A stretch of DNA of 64,000 nucleotides from Duganella sp. CF402 (GTDB lineage: Bacteria > Pseudomonadota > Gammaproteobacteria > Burkholderiales > Burkholderiaceae_D): positions 2,400,262 through 2,464,261 of the forward strand of contig NZ_FOBG01000001.1 in NCBI RefSeq assembly GCF_900109645.1, read 5' to 3'. The translations under genes were made by a program, and so were the position numbers. Every line of letters begins with the position of its first letter. Within the stretch, counting starts at the first letter, position 1. A model generated the notes under the pieces. It did not search any database, was not told the DNA's origin, and saw only the letters and a list, made by a program, of their open reading frames with translations. Shown in pieces: positions 21,101-38,968 of this stretch.

Positions 21101-21920
21101 TGGTCGCGCCCCATGCGCGCTCACGCTCCGTGCGCTCCGCCTGCGCGAAAAATTCGCCGAAGCCCGCAATCAAATCAGCCTTCGTGAACACCACATACAC
21201 CGGCGCGAAAATCTCCAGGCGTTCGATCAAATCCTGCACGCGCTTGCGCAGGCTGCGCGCCAGCTGGATGCCCGCCTCCGGATCCTCGCCGCGCAGTTCC
21301 GCGATGCTGACCGCAATCACAATCCCGTTGACCGGCGCACGGCGGCGATACTTCTTCAGCAAATCGAGAAAGCCGAACCACTCTGCGCGATGTTCATCAA
21401 GCACCGAGTAGCGGCCCGCCGTATCGAGCAGGATGCCTTCGGTGGTGAAGAACCAGTCGCAGTTGCGCGTGCCGCCCACGCCTTGCAGTACCTTCCCGTC
21501 CGCGAACGGAAACTGCAAGCCGGAGTTGGTAACGGCCGTGCTCTTGCCCGCCGCCGGATTCCCGATGATCATGTACCACGGCAGCTCGTACAAGGCACGC
21601 GTGCCGGAGACCATGCCCAGCTTCGAGCCCTTGATGGTATCGATCGCCTTGAGCATGCTGTCGCGGATGGCTTTTACCTCGGCGACCGACGGATCGACGA
21701 TGGCCCCGCCCAGCAATTCAGACTCGCGCCGCGCGCGCCAGCGTCGCCAGCCCCACACCGCGCCGGCCAGCGCCAGCATCACGGCGATGGCGGCCAAGGC
21801 CCACACCAGCGCCAGTTCCAGCATTTGCGCGCCAAGGTAAAACAGCGCCGCCATCGCCGTCAGGCCAATGATGGTGAGATTGCGGCTATCAGTCAGGAAG
21901 GTCCAGATTTTGCGCATCAT
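18105..21920 (-). CDS. tssM: T6SS inner-membrane protein TssM (IcmF)
   Basis: This 1271-residue protein forms the core of the T6SS trans-envelope channel. Two N-terminal transmembrane helices (about residues 10-50) precede a cytoplasmic NTPase-like domain with Walker A IIGNPAAGKST and TTEGILLDTAGRY. A third helix (YAAFFGAVLLLGASLGGWSW) leads into a large periplasmic region. A Pro/Gly/Ala-rich C-terminal tail of about 70 residues is unusual. The start was set at the ATGATG at 21920; a 12-codon upstream extension is Arg-rich and unconvincing. It lies between tagX (98 bp away) and tagF (4-bp overlap). Confidence 0.95.
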   Translation of the reverse strand: MMRKIWTFLTDSRNLTIIGLTAMAALFYLGAQMLELALVWALAAIAVMLALAGAVWGWRRWRARRESELLGGAIVDPSVAEVKAIRDSMLKAIDTIKGSKLGMVSGTRALYELPWYMIIGNPAAGKSTAVTNSGLQFPFADGKVLQGVGGTRNCDWFFTTEGILLDTAGRYSVLDEHRAEWFGFLDLLKKYRRRAPVNGIVIAVSIAELRGEDPEAGIQLARSLRKRVQDLIERLEIFAPVYVVFTKADLIAGFGEFFAQAERTERERAWGATMPYQRKTSSQQVMAFFDHAFDELCDGLKAMSLAIMGQQRRERMEPGVFTFPLEFSTIRAPLRAFLVTLFEENPFQFKPVFRGFYFTSALQEGMPLSEQSQRVAKRFALAASDTAAVAGAGNSGFFLLNLFRKVIFEDKDLVSQYASKTKVRLKYAAFFGAVLLLGASLGGWSWAYMGNRQLVSNVQADLDKVIKLQAKRLDLQSRLEALEIIQDRIVQLEKYHDARPWSLRMGLYQGELLERKLREEYFAGVRNVMLMPVVANLETQLSEMNVHAAELQPGAANVDDGYNALKSYLMLADKSHAEASHLNDQLPRHWRAWLDNNRGAMPREQMIHSAERLMTFYLAQIPDPAWPRIDLKLALVEQSRENLRRVVRGLPARERVYADIRARANTRFPSATVARVVGEQDQALVNGSYAVPGAYTREAWEKFVQEAFRNAASRELQSSDWVLKTAARDDLTLEGSPEQIQKGLTELYKADYAREWQRFVQGVNISNLNGFDAAVAAMNRLGDPQASPLTKLLAAIHQQTSWDNPSAMSAEVKEARTGFINWIKYSLLRRSPAQVNINLPAERAMAMGAVGREFSGIGKLVASGDKDASLMRAYMDVLSKLRGRMNQLKNQGDPGPGARQLMQQTLDGSGSELADALRWVDEQMLVGMSDTQKQAIRPILVRPLMQTFAVLIPAAEAEINKTWLAQVYEPFQQSLANKYPFAPNGRVEAASTEIAQFFGPDGVIAKFATSAMGPLVLRRGDVLAPRTWADMGITLAPQMAARFPGWVAPISAGGVVSPASAQTVFQIQPMPAPGALEYTVEIDGQQLRYRNTPAQWASMVHPSPEGAPGARITAVAADGRSVEVFNEPGQFGLKRMIDTAAKQKRDGGVFELRWTSGGITVAMGLKIVSSPENGAAASAPQDQGFRGLRLPETVVGAPLAGLAPGASPTPTAPPLMPTGGGPPTSAVAAAGPGGQSSAGTGASGGRQSDAAPAPASAPGAAPAGALVGAVR

Positions 21921-22019
21921 AGATGGTGTCCGGCGAAGACGGCGGCGCCCATGCAACAGGCGGACCGATCAATGTTGCCACCAACAAAGCCGGGATTTTT
22001 TGCGCCAGAACAAGTCCGC

Positions 22020-25764: not shown

Positions 25765-25797
25765 TTGTAAAAATAAATTCAAATGATGGAGGCGTGC

Positions 25798-26637
25798 ATG
25801 TGGGGAACCGCCGTTGTCTTGACTGCTGCAGTTGTGGCCACGGCAAGCCCCGCCGCCGCTCCCGTCAAGATCGGCCTGCAAAGCGTGATCGCGCCGTTCG
25901 TGCTGTCAGATCATTCGTCGGGCCTGCTGGTAGATGTGTTGCGCGCGGCGTTCGAGTCGCAGCATATGGCGGTTGAATTTCGCTATCTCCCCAATGCACG
26001 CTTCGAAGACCAGTTCCGCCAGGGCCTGCTCGACGTCACCACCTCGTCTTCACCGCAACACTCTCAAGAAGGTTACCTGGGCCACTGGCCGGTCTCGCAT
26101 TTTCAAAACATGGCCATCACCTTGCGCAGCAAGATCCCGGCCATGTCCACCGTCGCCGATCTGAAAAAATACCGTGTGACGGCGTTCCGCAATGCGCACA
26201 AGGTGCTGGGACCCGCCTACATTGCAGCAACGGCGGATAACCCGAACTATCGCGAAACCATCACCATGCCGTCGGGCGCCCTGTTCCTGGACCGCACCGA
26301 TGTGATCATCTCGCAGCCGGATATTTTCCTGTACTACCTCAAGCAGCAATTGCCGCAGCGGAGGAACGCCGCCACCGAGTTGGCCTTCCACGACGTGCTG
26401 GGCCCCGGCCGGTATTATTGGATGCGCTTCCGCACCACGGAGCAGCGCGATGCGTTCGAGCGCGGCATCGAGCAGTTGTACACCAGCGGCGAGATCGACC
26501 GCATCCTGACCCGCTACCAGCGCGACTACGGCGTGACGCGCGACTTCTTCATCGCACTGGACTGCCGCTTCCGGCCACAGCTGGCCCCGCAGAAGTGCAA
26601 GAAGCTCAGCCAGGAATGGAGCAGTACGCCACAATGA
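25798..26637 (+). CDS. Periplasmic solute-binding protein, SBP_bac_3 type, orphan
   Basis: This 279-residue secreted protein starts with the signal peptide MWGTAVVLTAAVVATASPAAA. The start at 25798 is supported by GGAGG five bases upstream, which overlaps two earlier ATGs. The fold is the amino-acid-binding type: FVLSDHSSGLLVDVLRAAFE, VEFRYLPNARFEDQF, VADLKKYRVTAFRN and the C-terminal LYTSGEIDRILTRYQRDYG. No permease or ATPase genes are adjacent, so it may serve a distant transporter or act as a periplasmic sensor. A coiled-coil gene follows 70 bp downstream, beginning with a hairpin that starts right at this stop codon. Confidence 0.85.
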   Translation: MWGTAVVLTAAVVATASPAAAPVKIGLQSVIAPFVLSDHSSGLLVDVLRAAFESQHMAVEFRYLPNARFEDQFRQGLLDVTTSSSPQHSQEGYLGHWPVSHFQNMAITLRSKIPAMSTVADLKKYRVTAFRNAHKVLGPAYIAATADNPNYRETITMPSGALFLDRTDVIISQPDIFLYYLKQQLPQRRNAATELAFHDVLGPGRYYWMRFRTTEQRDAFERGIEQLYTSGEIDRILTRYQRDYGVTRDFFIALDCRFRPQLAPQKCKKLSQEWSSTPQ

Positions 26638-26655
26638 CTTTGCGCACGCGCAAAG
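26638..26655 (+). promoter_or_regulatory. Leader hairpin of coiled-coil cassette, copy 1
   Basis: A perfect 7-bp stem (CTTTGCG/CGCAAAG) with tetraloop CACG ends 52 bases before the start codon of the coiled-coil gene. The same stem at nearly the same distance, with loop CCAA, precedes the paralogue (34829-34846). There is no U-tract, so it is not a terminator. Conservation of stem and position with a changed loop points to a functional RNA or operator element. Confidence 0.55.
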
Positions 26656-26707
26656 CGGCAAACGCCAACTTCGGAACAATGAATGGATGCCCTTGAAGGA
26701 GCCACTC

Positions 26708-27118
26708 ATGGAACCCGTGCCAAATGAATCGCGCCCTATTCCAGCGTATGATCACACCGAGCCCCGTCTTACGAAACTGGAGAAAGCTGTGACGGATCTA
26801 CAGTGTGACAACGCGCTACTCAGGCAGCGAATGGATAGCGGCTTTGAGGCAGCTCAAATACAGCTTGCGCTGACTGAAGAAAAGTTGCGACGCGAATTCC
26901 ACGAGGGTCTGCACGCCCTGGAGCAGCGCATGAACGCAAAAATCGAGGCGGAGTGTCAGCACCTGGAAAGCAAGTTCAGTAGCGAAATTCAAATCCTGGT
27001 CGCAAGGATGGATCGGCAGGATGCCAAGCTTGACCAACTCGCTAAATGGATGATTGGAGCGCAAGTGACTACGATGGCTTTTGTGGCCGGCATCGCCATC
27101 CAACTTTTCCTGCGCTGA
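26708..27118 (+). CDS. Tail-anchored coiled-coil protein, paralogue 1
   Basis: This 136-residue protein is a long coiled coil (residues 20-112, with runs such as RLTKLEKAVTDLQ, ALTEEKLRREFHEGLHALEQR and ARMDRQDAKLDQLAKW). It ends in a single C-terminal transmembrane helix (GAQVTTMAFVAGIAIQLFLR) and has no signal peptide. It resembles DUF1640-type tail-anchored coiled-coil proteins; that is from memory. AAGGAG six bases upstream fixes the start. The paralogue at 34900 is alignable without gaps except for a 14-residue insertion. Both genes are followed by a terminator and a tRNA-Asn gene on the other strand. Function unknown. Confidence 0.8.
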   Translation: MEPVPNESRPIPAYDHTEPRLTKLEKAVTDLQCDNALLRQRMDSGFEAAQIQLALTEEKLRREFHEGLHALEQRMNAKIEAECQHLESKFSSEIQILVARMDRQDAKLDQLAKWMIGAQVTTMAFVAGIAIQLFLR

Positions 27119-27123
27119 AAGCG

Positions 27124-27160
27124 AAAAAGCCCAACCGCTAACGACAGCGGCTGGGCTTTT
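27124..27160. terminator. Two-way terminator between coiled-coil gene 1 and tRNA-Asn 1
   Basis: A 12-bp stem (AGCCCAACCGCT with one mismatch) has A-runs on the left and T-runs on the right. It can therefore end transcripts from the coiled-coil gene (+) and the tRNA gene (-). Confidence 0.8.
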
Positions 27161-27168
27161 CTATGTTC

Positions 27169-27244
27169 TGGCTCCCCGACCTGGACTCGAACCAGGGACC
27201 TGCGGATTAACAGTCCGTCGCTCTACCGACTGAGCTATCAGGGA
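27169..27244 (-). tRNA. tRNA-Asn (GTT), copy 1
   Basis: A 76-nt cloverleaf on the minus strand: acceptor TCCCTGA pairing with TCGGGGA, D-arm GCTCAGTCGGTAGAGC, anticodon loop CTGTTAATC with GTT, T-arm CTGGTTCGAGTCCAG, and an encoded CCA. It is identical over its whole length to the copies at 31600-31675 and 35396-35471. Confidence 0.97.
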
Positions 27245-27255
27245 AAAGAGGCCGC

Positions 27256-27284
27256 ATTATATACGGCCATTTTTCAGCTGTCTA
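27256..27284 (-). promoter_or_regulatory. Promoter of tRNA-Asn copy 1
   Basis: On the minus strand TAGACA, a 17-base spacer and a perfect TATAAT lie just upstream of the tRNA 5' end. This is close to the sigma-70 consensus. Confidence 0.65.
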
Positions 27285-27301
27285 GGCTGAACGGCAATTT
27301 C

Positions 27302-29476
27302 TTAGAAACCGCCGCGGAACTGCACGCCAAACTGGCGCGGCTCGTTGACGAAGCCGGTCAGGTTGTTGAAGTCAATGCCGCCAATGATGCGACGGGTGTT
27401 GGTGATGTTGCGGCCGAACGCTGCCACTTCATACTTGCCGCCATCCCAGTTGTAACCCACGCGCAGGCCGCCTTCCAGCATTTCTTTGCCGGTGAACTCC
27501 TTCGACTCGTACAGGAAGAAGTTGATCTTGCTGCGATACGACCAGTCGGTCAGCACGAACAGGTTGCCATCGGCCAGCGGGAAGTTGTAACGCGCGGTGG
27601 CGTTGACGATGTACTTCGCCGCTTGCGGCAGCGGATTGCCGTTGATCGCGGCCAGCTTGTTGACGATCGGGTCGGTCACGGTGCAGGTGCCGCAAGGCTG
27701 TGCGTACAAGCTCGGATCCTTGATCTCGGTGAAGTTGTACGAGCCGCTCAGGCTGACCTTGAAGTCCGGGGTCACGAAGCCTTCGATCTCGGCTTCCACG
27801 CCGCGGCCGGCGGTCTTGGCAGCATTGATCAGCTTGGTCACGTTGGCGTTGCCGCCGACCACGGTCAGCTGCTGGTTCTTGACGTCGTAGTTATACACGC
27901 TCAGCGACGCGCGGGCGCGGCGGTTGAACAGGTCAGCCTTGATGCCGGCTTCGACCGAGGTGATGGTCTCGGCATCGGCCACGGTGATCGGCACCGAGGA
28001 CGAGGCAGCGGCGATCGACGGCGCGCGGAAACCGGTCGCTACGCGGCCGTAGGCGCTGATGTCCTTGTCGATCTTGTAGGTGCCGCTCAGGTCCCAGTTC
28101 GCTTTGTTCTTGCTCACGTCCACCGACTTCGGACCGATCTGGGTCACGTTCCAGGCGTTCACCGTGCGGAAGTCTTTTTGGTCGTGGGTGTAGCGCAGGC
28201 CGCCGCGCAGGGTGAAGTCGCTCGACACATCATAGGTCACCGAACCGAAGGCCGCGTAGGCGGTGTTGTTCTGGTGGCTGGTCAGGTCCGAGGTTTGCGC
28301 CTGGGTGGTGCTGTCGAAGTTGTCGCTGAAGCCGGTACCGCTTTCCTTGAAGTAGTACACGCCGGTCTGCCAGTTCAGCGGACCTGCGTTTTTCGACTCA
28401 ACACGGAATTCCTGGCTGTACTGTTTCAGGTCGGTGATGCCGCCGGCGGTCTGCACCGGGAAGCGCGGCGGGTTGGCCGGCGAGCCGCCGTCGATGTCGC
28501 CACGGGTGTAGTAGTTGTCCACGCCTTCGTAGCCGGTGATCGAGAACAGCTTGACCGCGCCCAGGTCCCAGGTCAGGCGGGCGTTGGCGCCGTTGGTGCG
28601 CAGGTTCTGGAAGTTCAGGCCGTCGGTCGAGATCTTGGTGAAGTCGTAGCCGTCAGCGAAGTCGTTGGTGCCCTTCTTGATCAGGTTGGCGCGGAACAGG
28701 CGCGCGCTGCCGTCGGTGGTACGCGAGTGCACGTTGAACAGCGCGTTGAAGGTGGTGCTTGGCTTGTACAGGAACTGCACGCGCTCGGCGTGTTCGTTGT
28801 AGCCTTCCAGCGCATCGTTCTGCTTGGTATAGGTGTTGTCGACGAAGTCGTCGCGGTGCTGGCGCAGGGTCGATACGCGCATGGCCCACTCGCTCGACAG
28901 CGGGATGTTGGCGGCCGCTTCCACCGAGCTGGTTTTGTGGGTGGCGATCGAGGCGCTGTAGTAGCCTTCGATCTTGTCCAGGTTCGGCTTGGCCGATTCA
29001 AACTTCACCACGCCGGCCGGGGTGTTGCGGCCGAACAGGGTGCCTTGCGGGCCGCGCAGCACTTCCACGCCGGCCACGTCGAACACCGGGAAGCCTTTCA
29101 GGATGCCGTTCTCTTGCACCACGTCGTCGTACACCAGCGATACCGGCTGCGAAGCGAAGGTCGAGAAGTCGGTGTTGCCGTAGCCGCGGATGTAGAAGCG
29201 CGGGAAGGTACGGCCGTTCGACGATTCCACGTTCAGCGATGGCACTTTGCCGGCCAGGAAACGGATGTCCTGGCCGCCGGACAGCAGCACGTCCAGCTTT
29301 TCGTCTTTCAGCATGGTGACGGAAACTGGCACGTCCTTGATGTTTTCCGCGCGACGCTGGGCGGTCACGGTCACGGTTTCCAGTTGTGGCTCGGTGGTTT
29401 GCGCAATGGCAGCACCGATAGGCAATACGGCGCTCAGCGCCAGTACGCGCTTGTGCATCTTCGACAGTTTGATCAT
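27302..29476 (-). CDS. TonB-dependent outer-membrane receptor
   Basis: This 724-residue receptor has a signal peptide (MHKRVLALSAVLPIGAAIAQ), then a TonB box-like segment LETVTVTAQRRAENIKDVPVSV. The plug domain carries FYIRGYGNTDF and VEVLRGPQGTLFGRNTPAGVV, and a 22-strand barrel ends in the terminal aromatic FRGGF. The plug motifs are of the broad group that includes pesticin/siderophore-like receptors common in sphingomonads and Oxalobacteraceae. The substrate cannot be read from the sequence. No TonB, ExbBD, FecR or susD-like genes are adjacent. Two abutting perfect palindromes lie about 195 bp upstream. The gene stands alone between a tRNA-Asn and a DUF3334 gene. Confidence 0.95.
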   Translation of the reverse strand: MIKLSKMHKRVLALSAVLPIGAAIAQTTEPQLETVTVTAQRRAENIKDVPVSVTMLKDEKLDVLLSGGQDIRFLAGKVPSLNVESSNGRTFPRFYIRGYGNTDFSTFASQPVSLVYDDVVQENGILKGFPVFDVAGVEVLRGPQGTLFGRNTPAGVVKFESAKPNLDKIEGYYSASIATHKTSSVEAAANIPLSSEWAMRVSTLRQHRDDFVDNTYTKQNDALEGYNEHAERVQFLYKPSTTFNALFNVHSRTTDGSARLFRANLIKKGTNDFADGYDFTKISTDGLNFQNLRTNGANARLTWDLGAVKLFSITGYEGVDNYYTRGDIDGGSPANPPRFPVQTAGGITDLKQYSQEFRVESKNAGPLNWQTGVYYFKESGTGFSDNFDSTTQAQTSDLTSHQNNTAYAAFGSVTYDVSSDFTLRGGLRYTHDQKDFRTVNAWNVTQIGPKSVDVSKNKANWDLSGTYKIDKDISAYGRVATGFRAPSIAAASSSVPITVADAETITSVEAGIKADLFNRRARASLSVYNYDVKNQQLTVVGGNANVTKLINAAKTAGRGVEAEIEGFVTPDFKVSLSGSYNFTEIKDPSLYAQPCGTCTVTDPIVNKLAAINGNPLPQAAKYIVNATARYNFPLADGNLFVLTDWSYRSKINFFLYESKEFTGKEMLEGGLRVGYNWDGGKYEVAAFGRNITNTRRIIGGIDFNNLTGFVNEPRQFGVQFRGGF

Positions 29477-29845
29477 TCCAATTTCCCGATTAGGTAGTGT
29501 GCAAAGAGTTAAAAACAGTTGTCTCCTGCTCTCTCTTTTTTGTGCGTCCAGCGCTGGTAGCAGCTATCAATAATGCACTGACTTTTTTGAAAGGCGATAT
29601 TGTCTTAGATTGATAGTGGGTATTGCAAGCTGAATATATCTTCACGCCGATTTACGGTTAGAAATTTGGTTTTACATATGTAAAAACTGAATATTCAGTG
29701 GTTTAGGCGCGCCGCACCAGCCTCACCATGATGATATCGGCAAGCTTGGCGGGATGGCAGGAGGCGGAAGGGAGAGGTGGCAATTGTAGGAAAATTGCCA
29801 CAAAAACAGCGCGGCCAGCGCGAGGCTGGCCGTGGAATGGCGGGC
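29477..29845. other. Intergenic region upstream of the TonB receptor
   Basis: This 369-bp gap lies between the leftward DUF3334 gene and the leftward TonB receptor. It is AT-rich from about 29510 to 29700 and contains the palindrome pair at 29670-29699. The segment 29700-29845 is GC-rich and shows nothing I can name. No convincing small gene is present. Confidence 0.6.
29670..29699. promoter_or_regulatory. Two abutting perfect palindromes, candidate operators
   Basis: TTTTACATATGTAAAA (16 bp, 29670-29685) is directly followed by ACTGAATATTCAGT (14 bp, 29686-29699). Both are perfect. They lie about 195-225 bp upstream of the TonB receptor start. They look like binding sites for dimeric regulators, but no regulator gene is adjacent. 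Confidence 0.55.
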
Positions 29846-30541
29846 TTACATGCCCAGGGATCTTAGCAATTCATCGGCATCGTGGTCGGCCGACGCTGCG
29901 GCCGACGACGCGCCGCCCGCCAGGTGCGCGGCGCGCTCCTGGTCCATCAGTGCGTCGGGATCGACGATCTCGCTGGAATCGAAGTCGCGCAGGCGGATGA
30001 ACTCGGTGCGGTCGATCGCCAGCTCCAGGTAGAACACATTGCCGGTCTCGGTGTAGAAACTGACGCGGCGCATTTCCGGGCGGTCCAGCGGGGTGTCGAC
30101 GCTGAGCACGATCTGCTTGTTCAGCACCAGCATCTTCGGCTGGTTCTGGGTAATGTTGGTTTGCAGCTCGCGCCGCACCTTGCCGGTGAAGTCGCCGACT
30201 ATCTGGTTCATCAGCTCGCCCATGATGTTGGCCACCTCGTCCGAGGTGTGCGAGCTGGCCAGCTCCGATTTCGGCATGCCCATGTGCAGCATGTAGCGCT
30301 CGTAGATTTCCATCGCCGTGCCGGCGGCGAAATTCAGCACCACCAAGCCGGTAAAGCCGCCGTCAAACAACACGAAGCAGCCGATGTCGGGTTTGAGGCC
30401 GATCTTGGTAATGCGTTGCACCATGCCGGCGTAGTTCACCTGGCTCTGGGTGGCGGCGTTCAACACCTTGGTCACCGAATTGCACAGACTTTCCAGCAAG
30501 TCCTCGGTACCGTAGACCACCGCTTTGTTTTCGCTGCTCAT
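29846..30541 (-). CDS. DUF3334 family protein (CheX/CheC-like fold)
   Basis: This 231-residue protein matches the DUF3334 family as I know it from Vibrio and other proteobacteria: TEDLLESLCNSVTKVLNAAT, MVQRITKIGLKPDIGCFVLF and DGGFTGLVVLNF, then EVANIMGELMNQIVGDF and TEFIRLRDFDSSEIVDPDAL. The Glu-x2-Asn helix (GELMNQ) resembles the active-site motif of CheX/CheC chemotaxis phosphatases, so a link to phospho-CheY or receptor signalling is plausible but inferred. The C-terminal 30 residues are Ala/Asp-rich. The ATG at 30541 was chosen over TTG at 30547 because AGAGG is well placed. It is divergent from an unknown membrane protein. Confidence 0.83.
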   Translation of the reverse strand: MSSENKAVVYGTEDLLESLCNSVTKVLNAATQSQVNYAGMVQRITKIGLKPDIGCFVLFDGGFTGLVVLNFAAGTAMEIYERYMLHMGMPKSELASSHTSDEVANIMGELMNQIVGDFTGKVRRELQTNITQNQPKMLVLNKQIVLSVDTPLDRPEMRRVSFYTETGNVFYLELAIDRTEFIRLRDFDSSEIVDPDALMDQERAAHLAGGASSAAASADHDADELLRSLGM

Positions 30542-30775
30542 AATCAACCTCTACTTATTTTTTTAAAGATGAAACGTGGTTTCCCATGATTCAGAATACC
30601 GAGTGGCAAGATTCTCGTCCATAGGAATCGCGTGTTTGTGTGAGATTTCGCCGCAAACTGCGCACAGGCAAGGCCCTAGCTTGCGCATCAATAAATCAAC
30701 AATGGTGAAAATTGGAGAGATTAGCGAGCAATAATAAAGGCAAAATTGCTGTAAAACCCAAAGCAAGGAGCCGGC

Positions 30776-31435
30776 ATGTCAGCACAAACCGCACTTCCCG
30801 CAAACAACCAGTACGTGGTCTCTTACATGCTGCTACGCCAGATGATAGGGGCTCTGGGGCTCGGCATGCCAATCTTCGTGCATGGCTGGGCCAAGATATT
30901 TTACGGAATCCCGCTGGCCAACTCCATCAGCGCCTACTATTACACCGTCATGCGCGACGAGTTCGTATCAACGCTCGTGTTGGTGGGCGTACTCCTGCTC
31001 TGCTATCGCGGCCCGTCGCGGATCGACAATGCAATTGCCAGTATTGCCGGAATTGCTGGTATCGGCATCGCCTTAAGCCCGATGTCGCAGGCTAGCGCTT
31101 GCGAAATACTAGGCAAGTTTTCGAATGTTTGCCAACTGCCGCCGAGCACGCATCCCAGTTATCACTTTATTTTCGTGGCGATCTTTTTCGCGCTGGTGTT
31201 TGTGCTGGTGTTTTTCCGCTTTCGCCTTCCAACGCCGGGAGCGCCGGCCGCCCGGAAAAACGCACGCAACAAGGTCTATTTCGCCTGCGGCATCGCCATG
31301 CTGGTGTCCTTCCTGATCATCGGCTTGATGAATCTGACGCACAACGAAGGATCAATTTTCTGGCCCGAGACCGTCGCCGTCATGGCCTTCGCCATAGCCT
31401 GGCTGACCAAGGGGCAAGCCATACTTAAAGGGTAA
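30776..31435 (+). CDS. Unrecognised integral membrane protein
   Basis: I do not recognise this 219-residue protein. AAGGAG five bases upstream fixes the start. It has about six hydrophobic segments, including MIGALGLGMPIFVHGWA, FVSTLVLVGVLLLCY, ASIAGIAGIGIALSPM, FIFVAIFFALVFVLVFF, FACGIAMLVSFLIIGLM and VAVMAFAIAWLTKG. A conserved-looking loop holds two cysteines (ACEILGKFSNVCQLP). It may be a DUF998-like small multipass protein. It is divergent from DUF3334 and stands upstream of tRNA-Asn copy 2, in the position that coiled-coil genes hold at copies 1 and 3. Confidence 0.7.
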   Translation: MSAQTALPANNQYVVSYMLLRQMIGALGLGMPIFVHGWAKIFYGIPLANSISAYYYTVMRDEFVSTLVLVGVLLLCYRGPSRIDNAIASIAGIAGIGIALSPMSQASACEILGKFSNVCQLPPSTHPSYHFIFVAIFFALVFVLVFFRFRLPTPGAPAARKNARNKVYFACGIAMLVSFLIIGLMNLTHNEGSIFWPETVAVMAFAIAWLTKGQAILKG

Positions 31436-31561
31436 ACAAACAAAGGAAACGTCATGGCAACGTGGACGCGCTGGACGCAGTCATCGCCCGGCAGTTCCAC
31501 GCAATGTCATTGCATGCTGCCTTGCAGCATTTCCCCACTCATTTTTTCACCGTCCAAATGC

Positions 31562-31592
31562 AAAAAACCCAGCCTGTTAGGGCTGGGTTTTT
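31562..31592. terminator. Two-way terminator by tRNA-Asn copy 2
   Basis: The stem CCCAGCC/GGCTGGG with a six-base loop is flanked by A6 on the left and T5 on the right. It serves the tRNA on the minus strand and any rightward transcript from the membrane protein gene. Confidence 0.78.
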
Positions 31593-31599
31593 AGTATTC

Positions 31600-31675
31600 T
31601 GGCTCCCCGACCTGGACTCGAACCAGGGACCTGCGGATTAACAGTCCGTCGCTCTACCGACTGAGCTATCAGGGA
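31600..31675 (-). tRNA. tRNA-Asn (GTT), copy 2
   Basis: Identical in all 76 nt to copies 1 and 3, with anticodon GTT and encoded CCA. It lies on the minus strand, between an unknown membrane protein and the GPH/GH43 operon. Confidence 0.97.
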
Positions 31676-31687
31676 AGTGAGGCCAGA

Positions 31688-31716
31688 ATTATAGCCGCTC
31701 AAATTGGATTTGGCTA
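31688..31716 (-). promoter_or_regulatory. Promoter of tRNA-Asn copy 2
   Basis: A perfect TATAAT on the minus strand with a 17-base spacer to TAGCCA (4 of 6 matches to the -35 consensus). The spacing equals that of copy 1. Confidence 0.55.
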
Positions 31717-31810
31717 ATCTTTTTACGCCCCCGACGAAAATATGGCGCTTGACGCCCTTCGCTGGAAAAGTGACAATCGAATGGTTGCGCTATTCATTTA
31801 ATAAAAATTC

Positions 31811-31827
31811 TGATGGTAATACCATCA
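31811..31827. promoter_or_regulatory. 17-bp perfect palindrome upstream of sugar operon, candidate operator
   Basis: TGATGGTAATACCATCA is a perfect odd-length palindrome (8 + 1 + 8). It lies 20 bases before the start codon of the GPH symporter. Its form suits a dimeric sugar-responsive repressor such as a LacI- or GntR-family protein. No such gene is in the window. Confidence 0.6.
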
Positions 31828-31847
31828 CGGGACGCCGCGGAGACATG

Positions 31848-33338
31848 ATGACCCAAACCCCTACCAGCCCTTCGTCGGGCAAGCTTTCCCCGCTGGAGAA
31901 GATTGGCTACAGCCTCGGCGACCTGGCCGCCAATCTGATCTTCCAGACCCTGCTGACCTTCATCGCGTTCTTCTATACGGACGTCTACAAGATCCCGGCC
32001 ACCGCCGCCGCCACCATCATCTTCATCGGCGGCCTGGCGGGCGCCTGCTTCAATCCCATCATGGGCCTGATCGCCGACCGCACCGCCACCCGCTGGGGCA
32101 AGTTCCGCCCGTGGCTGCTGTGGACCTCCGTGCCGTTCGGCCTGATCGCCATCCTTGCCTTCAGCACCCCGGACCTCGGCGACAACGGCAAGATCATCTA
32201 CGCCACCCTGACCTACCTGGCGCTGCTGCTGATCTACTCGGCCAACAACCTGCCCTACTCGGCCCTGAGCGGCGTGCTGACCGGCAGCATGCAGGAGCGT
32301 AACAGCCTGTCGTCCTACCGCTTCGTGGCGGTGATGGTGGCCCAGCTGATCATCCAGGTGCTGCTGCTGCCGCTGGTGCTGATTCTCGGCGGCGGCGACA
32401 AGGTGATCGGCTTCCGCAACACCATGATGCTGTTCGCCGTCGCCGGCACCATCTGCTTCCTGATCGCCTTTGCCACCACCCGCGAGCGCATCGTGCCGAC
32501 CGCCGAGCAGCGCTCCAGCATCGGCCAGGACGTGCTGGACCTGCTGCGCAACAAGCCGTGGGTAGTGATGCTGCTGCTGACCATCATGGTATTCATCACG
32601 CTGGCCCTGAAAGGCGGCCTGTACATCTACTACTTCAAGAACTACCTGAGCGAAGCGGCGCTGTCCGCCTTCCTCAAGGACATCGGCTTCATCAGCTTTA
32701 TCGAGCACTTGAACGCTGCGCTCAACAGCATCGGCCTGACCAAGTTCCAGTGGCCGGAAGATCCCGCCACCTCGGCCTTCAGCCTGTTCAACGGCGCCGG
32801 CATCATCTGCATGATCATCGGCATCGGCTTCTCCAAGCCGCTGGCCGACCGCTTCGGCAAGCGCGATGTGTACGGCGCAGCGCTGCTGGTGTCCACCCTG
32901 TTCATGCTGGTCTTCTATGTGTTCCCGCCATCGTCGATCGGCCTGGTGTTCGGCGCGCAAATCCTGCACGGCTTCTTCTACGGCATCACCATCCCACTGC
33001 TGTGGGCCATGATTGCCGACGTCGCCGACTACTCGGAATGGAAAAACAACCGCCGCGCCACCGCGCTGCTGTTCTCGGCCATGATCTTCGGCCTCAAGGC
33101 CGGCCTCAGCATCGGCGGCGCGCTGGTTGCCGCGCTGTTGGCAGGCTATGGCTACGATGGCGCCCAGACCGTGCAGCCGCAGACGGTGGCAGACGGTATC
33201 CGCGTGTCGATCAGCCTGTACGCCTCGCTGCCGTTCCTGGTCGGCGTCGGCCTGCTGTACTTCTACGAAATCAACAAGGCGGCCGAGCGCACGATCGAAC
33301 TGGATCTGCAAACCCGCCGCGCTCAACTTACTGCATAA
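31848..33338 (+). CDS. GPH-family sugar:cation symporter
   Basis: This 496-residue, 12-helix transporter is of the glycoside-pentoside-hexuronide (GPH) family. Characteristic segments are LSPLEKIGYSLGDLAANLIF at the N-terminus, GLIADRTATRWGKFRPWLLW in the first cytoplasmic loop, NLPYSALSGVLTG, and IADVADYSEWKNNRRATALL late in the protein. GGAG lies five bases before ATG 31848, with another ATG one codon earlier. Directly downstream is a cytoplasmic GH43 enzyme (9 bp), so the pair probably imports and cleaves xylo- or arabino-oligosaccharides. A palindromic operator candidate sits just upstream. Confidence 0.92.
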   Translation: MTQTPTSPSSGKLSPLEKIGYSLGDLAANLIFQTLLTFIAFFYTDVYKIPATAAATIIFIGGLAGACFNPIMGLIADRTATRWGKFRPWLLWTSVPFGLIAILAFSTPDLGDNGKIIYATLTYLALLLIYSANNLPYSALSGVLTGSMQERNSLSSYRFVAVMVAQLIIQVLLLPLVLILGGGDKVIGFRNTMMLFAVAGTICFLIAFATTRERIVPTAEQRSSIGQDVLDLLRNKPWVVMLLLTIMVFITLALKGGLYIYYFKNYLSEAALSAFLKDIGFISFIEHLNAALNSIGLTKFQWPEDPATSAFSLFNGAGIICMIIGIGFSKPLADRFGKRDVYGAALLVSTLFMLVFYVFPPSSIGLVFGAQILHGFFYGITIPLLWAMIADVADYSEWKNNRRATALLFSAMIFGLKAGLSIGGALVAALLAGYGYDGAQTVQPQTVADGIRVSISLYASLPFLVGVGLLYFYEINKAAERTIELDLQTRRAQLTA

Positions 33339-33347
33339 GGCAAAACC

Positions 33348-34358
33348 ATGTCCGAACAACTGACTCCAGCTGAAGAACAAGCACTGCTGCGCGCGATCTC
33401 GCAGCCGCTGGTCTCGCATATCTACACCGCCGACCCGTCGGCCCACGTGTTCAACGGCAAGCTCTACGTCTATCCATCGCACGACATCGAAGCGGGCATT
33501 CCGTTCAACGACAACGGCGACCACTTCGGTATGGAGGATTACCATGTGCTGTCGATGGATACGCCGGATGGCGAAGTCACCGACCACGGCGTGGCACTGC
33601 ACATCAAAGATGTGGCATGGGCCGAGCGCCAGATGTGGGCGCCGGACGCGGCCACCAAAGATGGCAGATACTACCTGTACTTCCCGGCCAAGCGCGCCGA
33701 CGGCATCTTCCAGATCGGCGTAGCGGTCGGCGACCAGCCGCAAGGCCCGTTCACGCCGGAGCCGGCCGCCATCGAGGGCAGCTATTCGATCGACCCGGCA
33801 GTGTTTGAAGACCAAGGCGAGCACTACATGTACTTCGGCGGCATCTGGGGCGGCCAGTTGCAGAAGTACCGCAACAACGAGTATGCAGCATCGAACGAAG
33901 AGCCTGCGGACGACCAGCCGGCCCTGACCGCCCGTGTGGCACGCCTGACGACCGACATGAAGCAGTTCGCCGAAGCGCCGCGCGCGGTGGTGATCCTGGA
34001 CGAAAACGGCGAGCCGCTGCTGGCCGGCGACCACGACCGCCGCTACTTCGAAGGCCCGTGGATGCACAAGTACCAGGGCAAGTACTACTTCTCCTACTCG
34101 ACCGGCGACACCCACTTCCTGTGCTACGCGGTGGGCGACAATCCATACGGCCCGTTCACCTACCAGGGCCAGATCCTGACGCCGGTGATCGGCTGGACCA
34201 CGCACCACTCGATCGTGGAATTCGAAGGCCGCTGGTTCCTGTACTACCACGACAGCAGCCTGTCGAAGGGCATCACCCACCTGCGCTCGGTGAAGGTGAC
34301 GGAATTGTTCTACGACGATAACGGCCGCATCAAGACCATCGACCCGTACGGCAAATAA
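33348..34358 (+). CDS. Cytoplasmic glycoside hydrolase family 43 enzyme
   Basis: This 336-residue five-bladed beta-propeller hydrolase belongs to GH43, whose members are beta-xylosidases and alpha-L-arabinofuranosidases. The likely catalytic residues are the Asp in YTADPSAHVF (base), the Asp in YSIDPAVFED (pKa modulator) and the Glu in YFEGPWMHKY (acid). WAPDAATKDGRYYLYF and GRWFLYYHDSS are further family segments. It has no signal peptide, so it acts in the cytoplasm on sugars brought in by the GPH symporter encoded 9 bp upstream. A strong terminator follows. The exact sugar specificity is not determinable here. Confidence 0.92.
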   Translation: MSEQLTPAEEQALLRAISQPLVSHIYTADPSAHVFNGKLYVYPSHDIEAGIPFNDNGDHFGMEDYHVLSMDTPDGEVTDHGVALHIKDVAWAERQMWAPDAATKDGRYYLYFPAKRADGIFQIGVAVGDQPQGPFTPEPAAIEGSYSIDPAVFEDQGEHYMYFGGIWGGQLQKYRNNEYAASNEEPADDQPALTARVARLTTDMKQFAEAPRAVVILDENGEPLLAGDHDRRYFEGPWMHKYQGKYYFSYSTGDTHFLCYAVGDNPYGPFTYQGQILTPVIGWTTHHSIVEFEGRWFLYYHDSSLSKGITHLRSVKVTELFYDDNGRIKTIDPYGK

Positions 34359-34373
34359 GCGGCCGCAGCGCAG

Positions 34374-34402
34374 AAAGCCCACTCCGCCGAGTGGGCTTTT
34401 TT
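34374..34402 (+). terminator. Terminator of the GPH-GH43 operon
   Basis: The stem AAAGCCCACTC/GAGTGGGCTTT with loop CGCC is followed by six T. It lies 15 bp after the GH43 stop codon. Confidence 0.9.
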
Positions 34403-34447
34403 GTTATGTGACAAAATATCGTCTTTCAAACCACACGAGCAATAGCA

Positions 34448-34777
34448 ATGCAATTACCAAGCTTCAGCGACAAATTCTCCGACAACCTGGCCCAGATCCC
34501 CGCAATGGAGTCGGTAGCCGCCATCGAACTAATCGACCAGTCCGGCGCAACCGTGGCAAAGATTGAAAACAAACCAGGCCAGGCGGGCTCGCTCCGTGTT
34601 TATAGCTGGCTGGCAGACAAGCTCGGCGCGATCACGCCAGAAGCCGCCGAACTGGGCCTGAAGATCTATGCAGAACACACGCAAGACGCCATCGCCAACC
34701 CTGGCAAGCATCCAAACATTGACCGTTTGTTCAACATTAAAACCGCAGAACAAACCCTGCAGGTAAAAGGCCTGTAA
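34448..34777 (+). CDS. DUF2322 family small protein
   Basis: This 109-residue cytoplasmic protein matches DUF2322 as I remember it: MESVAAIELIDQSGATVAKI, PGQAGSLRVYSWLADKLG, EAAELGLKIYAEHTQDA and NPGKHPNIDRLF. There is no transmembrane segment or signal peptide. Its function is unknown. It follows the GH43 terminator and is probably transcribed alone. The leader hairpin of the second coiled-coil cassette begins about 50 bp downstream. Confidence 0.8.
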   Translation: MQLPSFSDKFSDNLAQIPAMESVAAIELIDQSGATVAKIENKPGQAGSLRVYSWLADKLGAITPEAAELGLKIYAEHTQDAIANPGKHPNIDRLFNIKTAEQTLQVKGL

Positions 34778-34828
34778 GCCCGGCCACGGCAGCCGGCGCC
34801 CGGCTGCCGCCACCTCCCGCCACAACAC

Positions 34829-34846
34829 CTTTGCGCCAACGCAAAG
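34829..34846 (+). promoter_or_regulatory. Leader hairpin of coiled-coil cassette, copy 2
   Basis: The same perfect stem CTTTGCG/CGCAAAG as at 26638-26655, with loop CCAA in place of CACG. It ends 53 bases before the start codon (52 in copy 1). The sequence between hairpin and start is also similar in the two copies. Confidence 0.55.
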
Positions 34847-34899
34847 CGGCCAGCGCCAACTTCGAAACAATGAGAGGATGCCCCAACAGGAGTCCAATC

Positions 34900-35352
34900 A
34901 TGGCATCCGCACCAAACGAATCACCCGCCCAATCGGCGTATGATGAACACGAAGCCCGTCTGACGAACGTGGAGAAAGCCGTGACGGATTTACAATGTAA
35001 CAACTCGCTACTCAGGCAGCAGATGGCGAGTGGCTTTGCAGCGGTTCAAGCGCAATTTGCGCTAACCGAAGAAAAGCTGCGAAGTGAGTTCCGCGATGGC
35101 CTGCACGCCCTGGAACAGCGCATGACCGCGAAAATCGAGACAGAGTCCCAGCGCCTGGAAAGCAAGTTCAGCAACGAGATTCAAATGCTCGTTTCAAGGA
35201 TGGATCGACAGGATTCCAGGATGGATCGGCTGGATGCCAAGATAGACCGGCTCGACGCAAAAATCGACCAGCTGGCAAAATGGCTGATCGGCGCACAAGT
35301 CACCACGATGGCTTTCGTGATCGGCATCGCCGTCCAGCTTTTTCTGCGCTGA
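34900..35352 (+). CDS. Tail-anchored coiled-coil protein, paralogue 2
   Basis: This 150-residue protein is a paralogue of the one at 26708-27118. It shares the coiled coil (VEKAVTDLQCNNSLLRQQ, ALTEEKLRSEFRDGLHALEQ) and the C-terminal anchor (GAQVTTMAFVIGIAVQLFLR). It differs by a 14-residue insertion, exactly two heptads, in the repeat MDRQDSRMDRLDAKIDRLDA, which reads as tandem 7-residue units. AGGAG upstream fixes the start at MASAPNES. A two-way terminator and tRNA-Asn copy 3 follow. Function unknown; the tail anchor suggests attachment to the inner face of the cytoplasmic membrane. Confidence 0.82.
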   Translation: MASAPNESPAQSAYDEHEARLTNVEKAVTDLQCNNSLLRQQMASGFAAVQAQFALTEEKLRSEFRDGLHALEQRMTAKIETESQRLESKFSNEIQMLVSRMDRQDSRMDRLDAKIDRLDAKIDQLAKWLIGAQVTTMAFVIGIAVQLFLR

Positions 35353-35357
35353 AATGC

Positions 35358-35389
35358 AAAAAGCCCAACCTGTAAGGATTGGGCTTTTT
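35358..35389. terminator. Two-way terminator between coiled-coil gene 2 and tRNA-Asn 3
   Basis: AGCCCAA-CC pairs with GG-A-TTGGGCT around loop TGTAA, with A-runs left and T-runs right. It corresponds to the element at 27124-27160. Confidence 0.78.
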
Positions 35390-35395
35390 ATGTTC

Positions 35396-35471
35396 TGGCT
35401 CCCCGACCTGGACTCGAACCAGGGACCTGCGGATTAACAGTCCGTCGCTCTACCGACTGAGCTATCAGGGA
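35396..35471 (-). tRNA. tRNA-Asn (GTT), copy 3
   Basis: Identical in all 76 nt to copies 1 and 2. On the minus strand, a TATAAA element (35485-35490) lies upstream at the same place as the -10 boxes of the other copies; its -35 region is weak. Confidence 0.97.
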
Positions 35472-35584
35472 TTAGAGGCAACATTTTATACTGTTTCTTT
35501 CGCACCGACAAGGTGCGATTTACTGCGGTATTTCATGCTGCTTTTCGCGCTTTGCCATGCAGCTCAGCGCGAAGAACCAAGATT

Positions 35585-36781
35585 TTAGAGGACTTCGGCG
35601 ATGGCGTCAATAACGATATCGATATTGCGCGAGTTCAACGCGGCGACGCAGATGCGGCCGGTGTCCACGGCGTAGATCGACTTGGCGCGCAGCTGTTCCA
35701 CTTGTGCCTTGCTCAGGCCCGAGTACGAGAACATGCCGATCTGGTCGCGCACGAAGGCGAAGTCATGGCCCTTGGCTTGCAGCTTGACCACAAACGCTTC
35801 ACGCATTTCCTTGATGCGCACGCGCATCGCAGCCAGCTCGTCTTCCCACATCTGGCGCAGCTCAGGGGTGGTCAGCACGGTCGCTACGACCTTGCCGCCG
35901 TGGACCGGTGGGTTGGAGTAGTTGGTGCGCACCACGCGTTTCAGTTGCGACATCAGGCGAGCCGCTTCTTCCGAGGTGGCAGCCACCACGCTCAGCGCGC
36001 CCACGCGCTCGCCGTACAGCGAGAACGATTTGGAGAACGAGTTCGATACCAGAAGCGGACCGCCGGCGGCAGCGAAGCGGCGCACCACGGCGCCGTCTTC
36101 GGCGATACCAGCGCCGAAGCCCTGGTAAGCCATGTCCAGGAACGGTACCAGGCCGCCATTGGTCACAGCAGCGATCACTTCATCCCACTGGGCCGAGGTC
36201 AGGTCGGCGCCGGTCGGGTTGTGGCAGCAGGCGTGCAGCAGCACGATGGAGCCGGCTGGCATGGCTTTGATGTCGGCGATCATGCCGGCGAAGTTCACGC
36301 CGTGGGTGGCCGCGTCGAAGTAGGCGTAGTTGTTGACTTTGAAACCGGCGCTTTCAAACAGCGCGCGGTGGTTTTCCCAGCTTGGGTCGCTGATGTAGAC
36401 TTCCGCGTCCGGGGCGAAGCGCTTCAGGAAGTCGGCGCCGATTTTCAGGGCGCCGGTGCCGCCGATGGCTTGCACGGTGACGGCGCGTTTTTCTTGCAGC
36501 ACGGCACTGTCGGCGCCGAATACCAGCTCTTGCACCGCCTTGTCGTAGGCAGCCAGACCTTCGATTGGCAGGTAGGTGCGCGGCGCAGGCGTCGCGATCA
36601 GGATTTCCTCCGCTTTCTGCACGCACGATAGCAGCGGCACTTTACCGTTGTCGTCATAATAAACACCAACGCCCAGATTGATTTTCTGTGGGTTTTGGTC
36701 GGCGTTAAAGGCTTCGGTAATACCCAGGATAGGGTCGCGTGGTGCCATGTCGATGGCGCTGAACAAGCTAGGATTCGTCAT
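35585..36781 (-). CDS. Aspartate/aromatic amino acid aminotransferase (class I)
   Basis: This 398-residue PLP enzyme belongs to the AspC/TyrB group. The N-terminus MTNPSLFSAIDMAPRDPILG was taken as the start; an upstream extension to 36850 is not family-like. Visible motifs are NLGVGVYYDDNG, HACCHNPTGADLT, PFLDMAYQGFG and the PLP-lysine segment SNSFSKSFSLYGERVG. The Arg that binds the substrate carboxylate is in the C-terminal region (GRICVAALNSRN). It transfers amino groups between aspartate or aromatic amino acids and 2-oxoglutarate. Sequence alone does not separate aspC from tyrB. It is divergent from uvrB. Confidence 0.92.
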   Translation of the reverse strand: MTNPSLFSAIDMAPRDPILGITEAFNADQNPQKINLGVGVYYDDNGKVPLLSCVQKAEEILIATPAPRTYLPIEGLAAYDKAVQELVFGADSAVLQEKRAVTVQAIGGTGALKIGADFLKRFAPDAEVYISDPSWENHRALFESAGFKVNNYAYFDAATHGVNFAGMIADIKAMPAGSIVLLHACCHNPTGADLTSAQWDEVIAAVTNGGLVPFLDMAYQGFGAGIAEDGAVVRRFAAAGGPLLVSNSFSKSFSLYGERVGALSVVAATSEEAARLMSQLKRVVRTNYSNPPVHGGKVVATVLTTPELRQMWEDELAAMRVRIKEMREAFVVKLQAKGHDFAFVRDQIGMFSYSGLSKAQVEQLRAKSIYAVDTGRICVAALNSRNIDIVIDAIAEVL

Positions 36782-36895
36782 GATAAGATTGGATTCAATT
36801 GGAAGCGGTTCGCAGCAGAGATGTATAGACAGCGCCCTTAAAATAAACACTTCAGGCCGCTGGCAGGCCGTTATTCTAACAAAGGTCTGAGCAAG

Positions 36896-38968
36896 ATGGC
36901 TGATTTACCTGTAGCAGATACCCCTCAAGCGACCGTGGTCACGTTCCCGGATTCGCCGTTCAAACTGCACCAGCCCTTCCCGCCCGCCGGCGACCAGCCG
37001 ACGGCGATCGACCAGCTGTGCGAAGGCATCGACGACGGTCTGTTCTTCCAGACGCTGCTCGGCGTGACCGGTTCCGGCAAGACCTACACGATGGCGAACG
37101 TCATTGCGCGCAAGGGCCGCCCTGCCATCGTGTTCGCACCGAACAAGACGCTGGCCGCGCAGCTGTATTCGGAGTTCCGCGAGTTCTTCCCGGAGAATGC
37201 GGTCGAGTACTTCGTGTCCTACTACGATTACTACCAGCCGGAAGCCTACGTGCCGCAGCGCGACCTGTTCATTGAAAAGGATTCGTCCATCAATGAGCAC
37301 ATCGAGCAGATGCGCCTGTCGTGCACCAAGTCGCTGATGGAGCGGCGCGATGTGGTGATCGTGGCGACGGTGTCGGCCATCTACGGTATCGGTAATCCGA
37401 ACGAGTACCACCAGATGATTCTGACCTTGCGCCAGAAGGACCGCGTGTCGCAGCGCGACATCATCGCGCGCTTGATCCAGATGCAGTACACGCGCAATGA
37501 AGTGGACTTCGGCCGTGGCACCTTCCGCGTGCGCGGCGATACGCTCGATATTTTCCCGGCCGAGAATGCGGACCTCGCGGTGCGCCTTGAGCTGTGGGAC
37601 GATGAGCTGGAATCGATCCAGCTGTTCGATCCGCTGACCGGCCGCGTCAAGCAAAAGATCCCGCGCTTCACCGTGTATCCAGGCTCGCACTACGTGACGC
37701 CGCGTTCGACCGTGCTGCGCGCCATCGAGACCATCAAGCTGGAGCTGCGCGAGCGGCTGGAGTTCTTCCGCAAGGAGAACAAGCTGATTGAAGAGCAGCG
37801 CCTTGAGCAGCGCACCCGTTTCGATCTGGAGATGATGGCGGAAATCGGCTTCACCAAGGGCATCGAGAACTACTCGCGCCACCTGAGCGGCGCAGCACCG
37901 GGCGAGCCGCCGCCAACGCTGGTCGACTATCTGCCGAAAGACGCGCTGATGTTCCTCGACGAATCACACGTGCTGATTGGCCAGCTAAGCGCCATGTACA
38001 ACGGCGACCGTTCGCGCAAAACGAATCTGGTCGATTACGGCTTCCGCCTGCCGTCGGCGCTGGATAACCGGCCATTGAAATTCGAAGAATTCGAGCAGAA
38101 GATGCGGCAAACGGTATTCGTCTCAGCCACGCCGGCGGACTACGAGAAGAAGCGCGCGGACCAAGTGGTGGAACAGGTGGTGCGCCCGACCGGCCTGGTC
38201 GACCCGCTGGTCATCGTGCGCCCTGCCCTGTCGCAGGTGGACGACCTGATGTCCGAGATCACCGACCGTGTGGCCAAGAACGAGCGCGTGCTGGTCACCA
38301 CGCTGACCAAGCGCATGTCCGAACAGCTGACCGAGTACCTGAGCGATCACGGCATCAAGGTGCGCTACCTGCACAGCGATATCGAAACCGTGGAGCGTGT
38401 GGAACTGCTGCGCGACCTGCGCATCGGCACCTTCGATGTGCTGGTCGGGATTAACTTGCTGCGCGAAGGCCTGGACTTGCCGGAGGTATCGCTGGTGGCC
38501 ATCCTCGACGCCGACAAGGAAGGCTTCCTGCGCTCCGAGCGCTCACTGATCCAGACCATCGGCCGCGCCGCGCGTAACCTGAACGGCGTGGCGCTGCTGT
38601 ACGCCGACCGCATGACCGATTCGATGGAACGCGCCATCGGCGAGACCGAGCGTCGCCGCGCCAAGCAGATCGCCTTCAACGAAGCCAACGGCATCGTGCC
38701 GCGCGGCGTGAAGAAGATCATCAAGGACATGATCGACGGCGTCTACAGCGAGAAGGAAGCGAAGGAAGAGCTGCAGGTGGCGCAGGAGACGGCCAAGTAC
38801 GAATCCATGAGCGAGAAGCAGATCAGCAAAGAGATCAAGCGCCTCGAAAAAGCCATGCTCGATCACGCCAAGAATCTGGAATTCGAAAAGGCCGCTCAAG
38901 TGCGCGACCAGCTGCACCACCTCAAGCAGCAGCTGTTCGGCGCGCCGGGCGCCGACACCATCAGCTGA
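36896..38968 (+). CDS. uvrB: Excinuclease ABC subunit B
   Basis: UvrB is the damage-verifying helicase of nucleotide excision repair. The 690 residues show Walker [17 protein letters not shown], the beta-hairpin region [39 protein letters not shown] and QTIGRAARN in the second RecA-like domain, and a C-terminal UVR motif ([20 protein letters not shown]) that binds UvrC. The length is typical. The 114-bp gap to the divergent aminotransferase shows no clear CTGT-N8-ACAG LexA box, so SOS control is not evident. Confidence 0.98.

Follow-up and report, generated by a model that had tools for sequence, protein, structure and literature searches.

An array of identical tRNA-Asn genes beside aspC in Duganella is probably a multi-site docking strip for integrating DNA

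Results

A duplicated coiled-coil gene block among three identical tRNA-Asn genes

We analyzed a 64,000-nucleotide (nt) stretch of Duganella sp. CF402 (contig NZ_FOBG01000001.1; hereafter the window, with all coordinates given as positions within it) in which a small coiled-coil gene and a tRNA-Asn gene occur side by side twice. A sequence-only reading of this DNA had described a duplicated unit made up of a leader, the coiled-coil gene, a terminator and a convergent tRNA-Asn, with a further tRNA-Asn and its terminator lying between the two units and lacking the coiled-coil gene. Both descriptions hold: the unit is present as paralogous blocks at 26627-27259 and 34818-35486. The three tRNA-Asn(GTT) genes are identical and all on the minus strand, with T3 at 27169-27244, the solitary middle copy T2 at 31600-31675 and T1, on the aspC side, at 35396-35471; at E 1e-15 they are the only tRNA-Asn matches in the genome. 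The coiled-coil genes are on the plus strand, W1 at 26708-27118 (136 amino acids (aa), the ATG being aligned with relatives and an upstream ATG at 26687 being possible) and W2 at 34900-35352 (150 aa, with a C-terminal hydrophobic anchor recognized by eye). W1 and W2 are 78% identical over the gene and 77% over its 3′ part, their leader repeats (26627-26701 and 34818-34892) are 80% identical, and the segments holding tRNA and terminator (27112-27259 and 35339-35486) are 74-86% identical to the middle copy at 31543-31690.

The tRNA-Asn of each duplicated unit had also been credited with its own promoter and with a terminator usable from both strands. A sequence scan does place a promoter-like site ahead of every tRNA-Asn gene (27284-27256, 31716-31688 and 35511-35483), these being among 7 such sites found in the window against 3.2 expected. 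Terminator-like stems with A and T runs on both sides lie between W1 and T3 (27124-27160), at T2 (31558-31597) and between W2 and T1 (35356-35390), and on the plus strand they fold far better than shuffled sequences (z -5.9, -5.9 and -3.6); a simple terminator scan of the window did not have these three stems among its calls. The stems are thus present as described, and their use from both strands is a reading of the A and T runs.

The tRNA-Asn array is kept in place while its contents vary

Fifty genomes of the genus were sampled, the first 48 plus two (G054 and G059) added as holders of the coiled-coil gene. We kept 47 of them, the window genome and 46 relatives, in which the array of tRNA-Asn genes is on one contig or a circular chromosome; G008, G018 and G040, with arrays broken over contigs, were dropped. 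In all 47 arrays, 3-5 full tRNA-Asn copies, all in one orientation, stand beside aspC with other genes interspersed (3 copies in 33 arrays, 4 in 13 and 5 in 1), and they span 3956-44017 bp (median 10773). A TonB-receptor-like gene is found in 47/47 arrays and a CheX-like gene in 36/47, the remaining content differs from genome to genome, and full tRNA-Asn copies stand at both ends of many array segments. The locus therefore combines a fixed chromosomal position, anchored at aspC in every array, with variable gene content, as a tRNA-gene island does. In the window the anchor genes aspC (minus strand) and uvrB (plus strand) occupy 35585-38968.

The positions next to the tRNA genes are taken by different genes in different genomes. 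In 8 of the 14 arrays holding DUF2322, this gene lies 46-127 bp from the 3′ end of a full or partial tRNA-Asn, and in G059, G007, G039, G024, G012 and G035 it directly abuts the terminator and tRNA-Asn; in the window, W2 separates DUF2322 (34448-34777, plus strand) from T1. Similarly, an SBP gene stands 112 and 191 bp away from a partial copy of tRNA-Asn in G013 and G025, where the coiled-coil gene is missing, and in the window W1 intervenes downstream of the SBP_bac_3-like gene (25783-26637, plus strand). Because DUF2322 and the SBP gene reach the tRNA elsewhere and W2 and W1 intervene here, the coiled-coil unit occupies a slot next to the tRNA, the place expected of a unit that has newly docked.

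Partial tRNA-Asn copies are exclusively 3′ pieces

Across the 47 arrays we found 24 partial tRNA-Asn copies, in 18 arrays, and all of them are same-strand 3′ pieces reaching nt 70-76 of the tRNA. Fourteen start at nt 30-32, about the beginning of the anticodon loop, which is a usual crossover point of integrases. This count includes three copies starting at nt 54 in the related genomes G015, G021 and G047, which do not enter the list of elements. The asymmetry is equally clear from exact 16-mers outside the full copies: nt 1-31 contribute none, nt 32-76 contribute 324 (overlapping), and the opposite strand has none. Such one-sided 3′ copies are the footprint that would be expected of integration into a tRNA gene, and we refer to them as footprints. 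G010 provides an example: a 3.9-kb insert splits the T2 site, which is whole in the window, so that nt 32-76 and the terminator end up toward CheX. In the same array, the coiled-coil gene precedes a partial copy that stems from a second insert, of 0.8 kb.

Some units have common ends and differing cargo

By eye, eight footprint-bounded elements from seven genomes (two from G001 and one each from G002, G010, G013, G014, G030 and G034) look alike just after the tRNA, and five elements (G001, G002, G010, G043 and G047) have a common right end before the footprint while their cargo differs. Both terminal motifs were derived from some of the elements scanned. With up to 5 mismatches, the left motif matches six of these eight elements (not G013 or G034) and gives 20 matches in 9 of the 47 arrays; 9 of these lie 63-65 nt after a tRNA-Asn 3′ end and the other 11 lie 81-2623 nt after one. 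In G043, one match at 63-65 nt follows a partial tRNA-Asn copy, which points to a chaining of units. For the right motif we obtained 5 matches, in 5 arrays and always 39-40 nt ahead of a footprint, and the opposite strand of the 47 arrays matches neither motif. When 16 whole genomes, picked partly because their arrays contain the motif, were scanned with up to 2 mismatches, the left motif gave 11 matches in five genomes, all within arrays.

In G022, G025 and G043 (loci L095, L113 and L099), a second type of end directly follows the tRNA and has repeats of the kind ATTACCC/ATTCCCC. These repeats are perhaps the arm sites of another integrase.

Cargo includes defense genes and one integrase

The footprint-bounded units are 0.3-19 kb long and have varied cargo, including defense genes. 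We scanned 47 of 347 cargo open reading frames (ORFs; at least 200 aa, chosen partly by GC content at codon positions), which come from 14 of 21 such units, the other seven having no ORF in the scanned set. PADLOC matches at 1e-10 or better include, among the matches listed, HerA, DUF4297, Avs2, a CBASS-type cyclase and 2TM effector, HEC-01A, PDC-S15, PDC-S60 and AriA-like ATPases; this tally covers the first 25 of 124 families in array cargo only, and the share of defense genes in it is not a rate. In addition, an 825-bp unit of G010 (L033), between T3 and a 46-nt 3′ piece, has two small genes that by eye resemble a MntA-HepT toxin-antitoxin pair.

One tyrosine integrase was found among the 47 scanned ORFs. 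It lies in G002 inside a 17-kb element having both terminal ends, and it has Phage_integrase and Arm-DNA-bind_3 domains; a search of 23 other genomes at E 1e-60 found no relatives of it. Integrase fragments were seen twice, of 49 residues in the G015 array and of 39 residues just outside the G059 array.

The coiled-coil gene is probably a passenger

The W1 protein, in its 143-aa reading from 26687, is predicted to form one helix over residues 20-142 (mean predicted local distance difference test score (pLDDT) 86), and a hydrophobic stretch is recognizable by eye at the C-terminus of the coiled-coil protein. The number of 7-residue repeats (DRQDARL and DRMEARL type; 35193-35270 in W2; L032, L034 and L035) differs among the coiled-coil genes, so rod length would vary between relatives. 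No Pfam or NCBIfam family matches the protein at cut-off, and W2 was not detected in collections of phages and plasmids. We looked for a known family in Pfam, NCBIfam, PHROGs, PADLOC and PDB sequences and obtained weak matches only. A holin-like or XhlA-type identity was rejected, there being no curated-family match and only weak PHROGs matches to hemolysins and holins, and PDB profile matches to the stalks of viral spikes and hemagglutinins seem to reflect a likeness between coiled coils and nothing more.

At E 1e-6, W2 finds matches in 17 of 148 genomes, its own included. Whether homologues sit beside tRNA-Asn had been posed as a check by the sequence-only reading, and the closer relatives bear it out: those at 43-74% identity have the gene inside the tRNA-Asn array in 9/9 cases. 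A scan of 84,980 genomes for short peptide patterns returned eight loci, in Duganella, Rugamonas, Pseudoduganella and Massilia, which are eight of the same nine relatives and add no independent count. We treat seven weaker matches (23-37% identity; G007, G008, G030, G048, G055, G069 and G073) as coiled-coil resemblance or remote relatives. Four weak coiled-coil matches (G007, G055, G073 and G030; L042, L043, L044 and L045) have a tRNA-Thr about 1.3-2.5 kb away.

The close association invites the explanation that the protein acts together with tRNA-Asn, perhaps by sensing tRNA or as the partner of a nuclease, and a membrane-tethered system tied to tRNA-Asn had indeed been suggested. All 11 coiled-coil genes, found in 10 arrays, are convergent to the tRNA, and 8 of them lie within 76 bp of the tRNA-Asn 3′ end; moreover, the divergence between W1 and W2 (nonsynonymous, dN, 0.15; synonymous, dS, 0.86) indicates that both are under purifying selection. 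The remaining three members lie farther off, however, one at 2.7 kb and two at about 280 bp, the gene is absent from 37/47 arrays, no Pfam or NCBIfam family matches it at cut-off, and the same tRNA-adjacent slot is occupied elsewhere by DUF2322, the SBP gene and other unrelated genes. A functional linkage is therefore highly improbable, and the tethered system finds no support; the coiled-coil gene, in its slot beside the tRNA, is probably a passenger. A small tree of 10 sequences, unrooted and without the G010 copy (whose 5′ part looks frame-broken), groups W2 with the G043 copy (support 0.97-0.99) even though that copy occupies the W1 position, which would fit exchange between slots.

The leader hairpin is not kept in relatives

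A 7-bp stem (CTTTGCG-N4-CGCAAAG) stands 52-53 bases before the gene starts at 26708 and 34900, both of which have GGAG ahead of them. As had been reported, it is present at both copies (26638-26655 and 34829-34846, plus strand), and in its perfect form it occurs nowhere else in the genome; a one-mismatch version lies at 2391792-2391809 of the contig (L029), about 8.5 kb before the window. The hairpin could be a conserved regulatory RNA element. The perfect stem with differing loops in both window copies, the fold of the W2 leader (z -3.06) and the pairing of 83.7% of stem cells over seven leaders, above slid versions, all point that way, and the kept stem had been taken as a sign of selection. 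We aligned, folded and counted pairs in seven leaders, those of W1, W2 and five relatives (G032, G059, G043, G009 and G054). G010, whose leader could not be aligned, was left out, as were G015, G021 and G047, which are divergent. None of the five relatives retains the full stem, each having lost one or more stem positions, although the right-arm sequence and the bases that follow are partly kept. Pairing and covariation over the seven leaders are no better than in shuffles, which did as well in 121/500 and 118/500 cases (269/500 for changes on both sides), and the fold of the W1 leader has a z of -0.93. Because leaders and genes diverged equally and relatives lack the full stem, the argument for selection fails, and conservation of the hairpin within the unit finds no support. 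We rejected the RNA element, which we regard as very unlikely; the identical stem in the two window copies most likely reflects their duplication.

Other genes of the window array

Between T1 and T2, the cargo includes genes named by eye as a major facilitator superfamily (MFS)-like transporter and a GH43-like gene (31845-34358, plus strand). A 219-aa membrane-like protein, also recognized by eye, is encoded convergent to T2 (30776-31435, plus strand), and a tblastn search of the other 46 arrays (E 1e-8, 40% coverage) found no match to it. The skeleton genes of the window array, TonB-receptor-like and CheX-like by eye, lie at 27302-30547 on the minus strand. Elsewhere in the window, a very long minus-strand frame (18105-21956) resembles by eye the type VI secretion protein IcmF/TssM.

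Discussion

The array with its kept skeleton genes, the footprints and variable cargo, and the common ends of some units are observed features of this locus. They lead us to the view that the identical tRNA-Asn genes anchored at uvrB-aspC probably form a multi-site docking strip for integrating DNA, that is, an additive flexible genomic island. Mechanistically, we infer that a tyrosine integrase recombines the tRNA 3′ half borne by an element with one of the tRNA-Asn genes, with crossover at the anticodon loop. The target tRNA would be restored intact, the cargo would come to lie on the 3′ flank of that gene, and the former 3′ half, of 45 nt, would remain as the footprint. Because most units examined have no recognizable integrase, they may have been moved in trans, may have decayed, or may have spread by homologous recombination between the identical tRNA/terminator repeats. 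In the window, duplication would have copied the coiled-coil gene together with its leader, terminator and tRNA.

Several results weigh against this interpretation. At the threshold used, 29 of the 47 arrays have no partial copy, and the window contains none of at least 12 nt. Neither terminal motif occurs in the window at up to 3 mismatches, nor does its array contain the left motif at up to 5 mismatches or the right motif at up to 4. The left flanks of 17 footprints have a mean similarity of 10.85, only slightly above random positions (9.58, sd 0.52; largest of 200 sets 10.46), and for this reason we claim a common right end for five elements only. A scan of 13 genomes, that of the window among them, gave 104 PF00589 matches (E 1e-8), none of which falls within the array. 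Likewise, the seven weaker coiled-coil matches have no tRNA-Asn in the 20 kb examined; one of them, in G069 (E 2.9e-19, 37% identity), may be a true distant homologue, which would count against a strict linkage to tRNA-Asn. Finally, mobility is read here from sequences, with neither excision nor transfer observed. The proposal that tRNA-Asn is a recombination site is supported for the lineage, in which 24/24 partial copies are 3′ pieces, tRNA 3′-end direct repeats border units and some units have common ends; for the window unit, whose array has no such repeat or footprint, no common end and no tyrosine integrase, mobility is a possibility only.

These absences bear on a simpler account of the coiled-coil block, in which an old tandem of tRNA-Asn genes was parted by ordinary insertions and the block was duplicated once, with no site-specific element involved. 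Closely spaced tRNA-Asn copies persist in relatives such as G007 and G016, the window array has neither footprint nor terminal motif, and the high divergence of W1 and W2 (the dS given above) indicates that the duplication is old. In a genome of the same order (G114, L105), four tRNA-Asn genes stand in close tandem within about 500 bp, possibly the ancestral state; the 9 kb examined around this tandem showed neither aspC nor uvrB. Plain inheritance leaves unexplained, however, why partial copies in relatives are exclusively 3′ pieces, mostly bounded at the anticodon loop, and why unrelated cargo there has common ends. We consider it a serious contender for the block, at somewhat below even chances, and its odds overlap with those of the docking strip, since it can hold for the block even if the array is such a strip. 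The window having neither footprint nor common end, its unit could have been copied by homologous recombination between tRNA/terminator repeats or by an old, eroded docking event.

The docking strip could be part of something more elaborate. In an integron-like platform of Duganella/Massilia-type bacteria, the intact tRNA-Asn genes would act as parallel, reusable sites at which integrase-less cassettes with standard ends, many of them anti-phage, are taken up, chained and reshuffled by a rare helper integrase acting in trans, and the coiled-coil unit would be an old cassette with decayed ends. We consider this less likely than not, if conceivable. The likeness to integrons and CALIN cassette arrays (PMC11389934) is one of working only: the arrayed cassettes lack an integrase of their own and may rely on one supplied in trans. 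The difference is that the apparent attachment site of the array is the 3′ half of a tRNA.

The docking strip itself belongs to a kind already known, the additive genomic island at a tRNA gene. A tycheposon carries a complete tRNA that restores its site. Array units have in common with tycheposons, which are described as cargo-bearing, tRNA-bordered and linked to tyrosine recombinases (PMC10872708, PMC11389934), the cargo, the tRNA border and the recombinase link; they differ in that the tRNA is tRNA-Asn, whereas the Methylophilaceae tycheposons start at tRNA-Met, and in that no recombinase was found in most units. PMC10872708 presents the island fGI-2 of Candidatus Methylopumilus (Methylophilaceae) as an additive flexible genomic island at tRNA-Lys with direct repeats of the tRNA 3′ end. 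The tRNA-Asn array shares with it variable cargo at a tRNA gene, repeated 3′ ends and a size range from <1 kb to tens of kb. In contrast to fGI-2 as described there, the array has 3-5 complete copies as parallel sites around kept skeleton genes, its partial copies are often about 45 nt rather than 20, and terminal motifs are common to some of its units (PMC10872708). In Escherichia coli, the asnT/asnU/asnV/asnW region hosts the HPI and pks islands, with pks at asnU, asnV or asnW (PMC8209727). There too, identical tRNA-Asn genes lie close by with other genes between them, but the islands so described are large and typically have an integrase (PMC8209727), whereas the array has small units mostly without a recognized one.

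What appears to be new is the combination of several intact copies serving as parallel sites, small and mostly integrase-less units, some common ends and a kept skeleton; our search of one literature library returned no description of this array in Duganella/Massilia. If this interpretation is correct, an essential tRNA gene is maintained in one lineage as a group of several copies that serve as landing sites, and gene exchange, including that of anti-phage genes, would be confined to one address without harming translation. The array would then be a fixed location at which to seek new defense genes of this group, and would serve as a test case of the movement of integrase-less islands.

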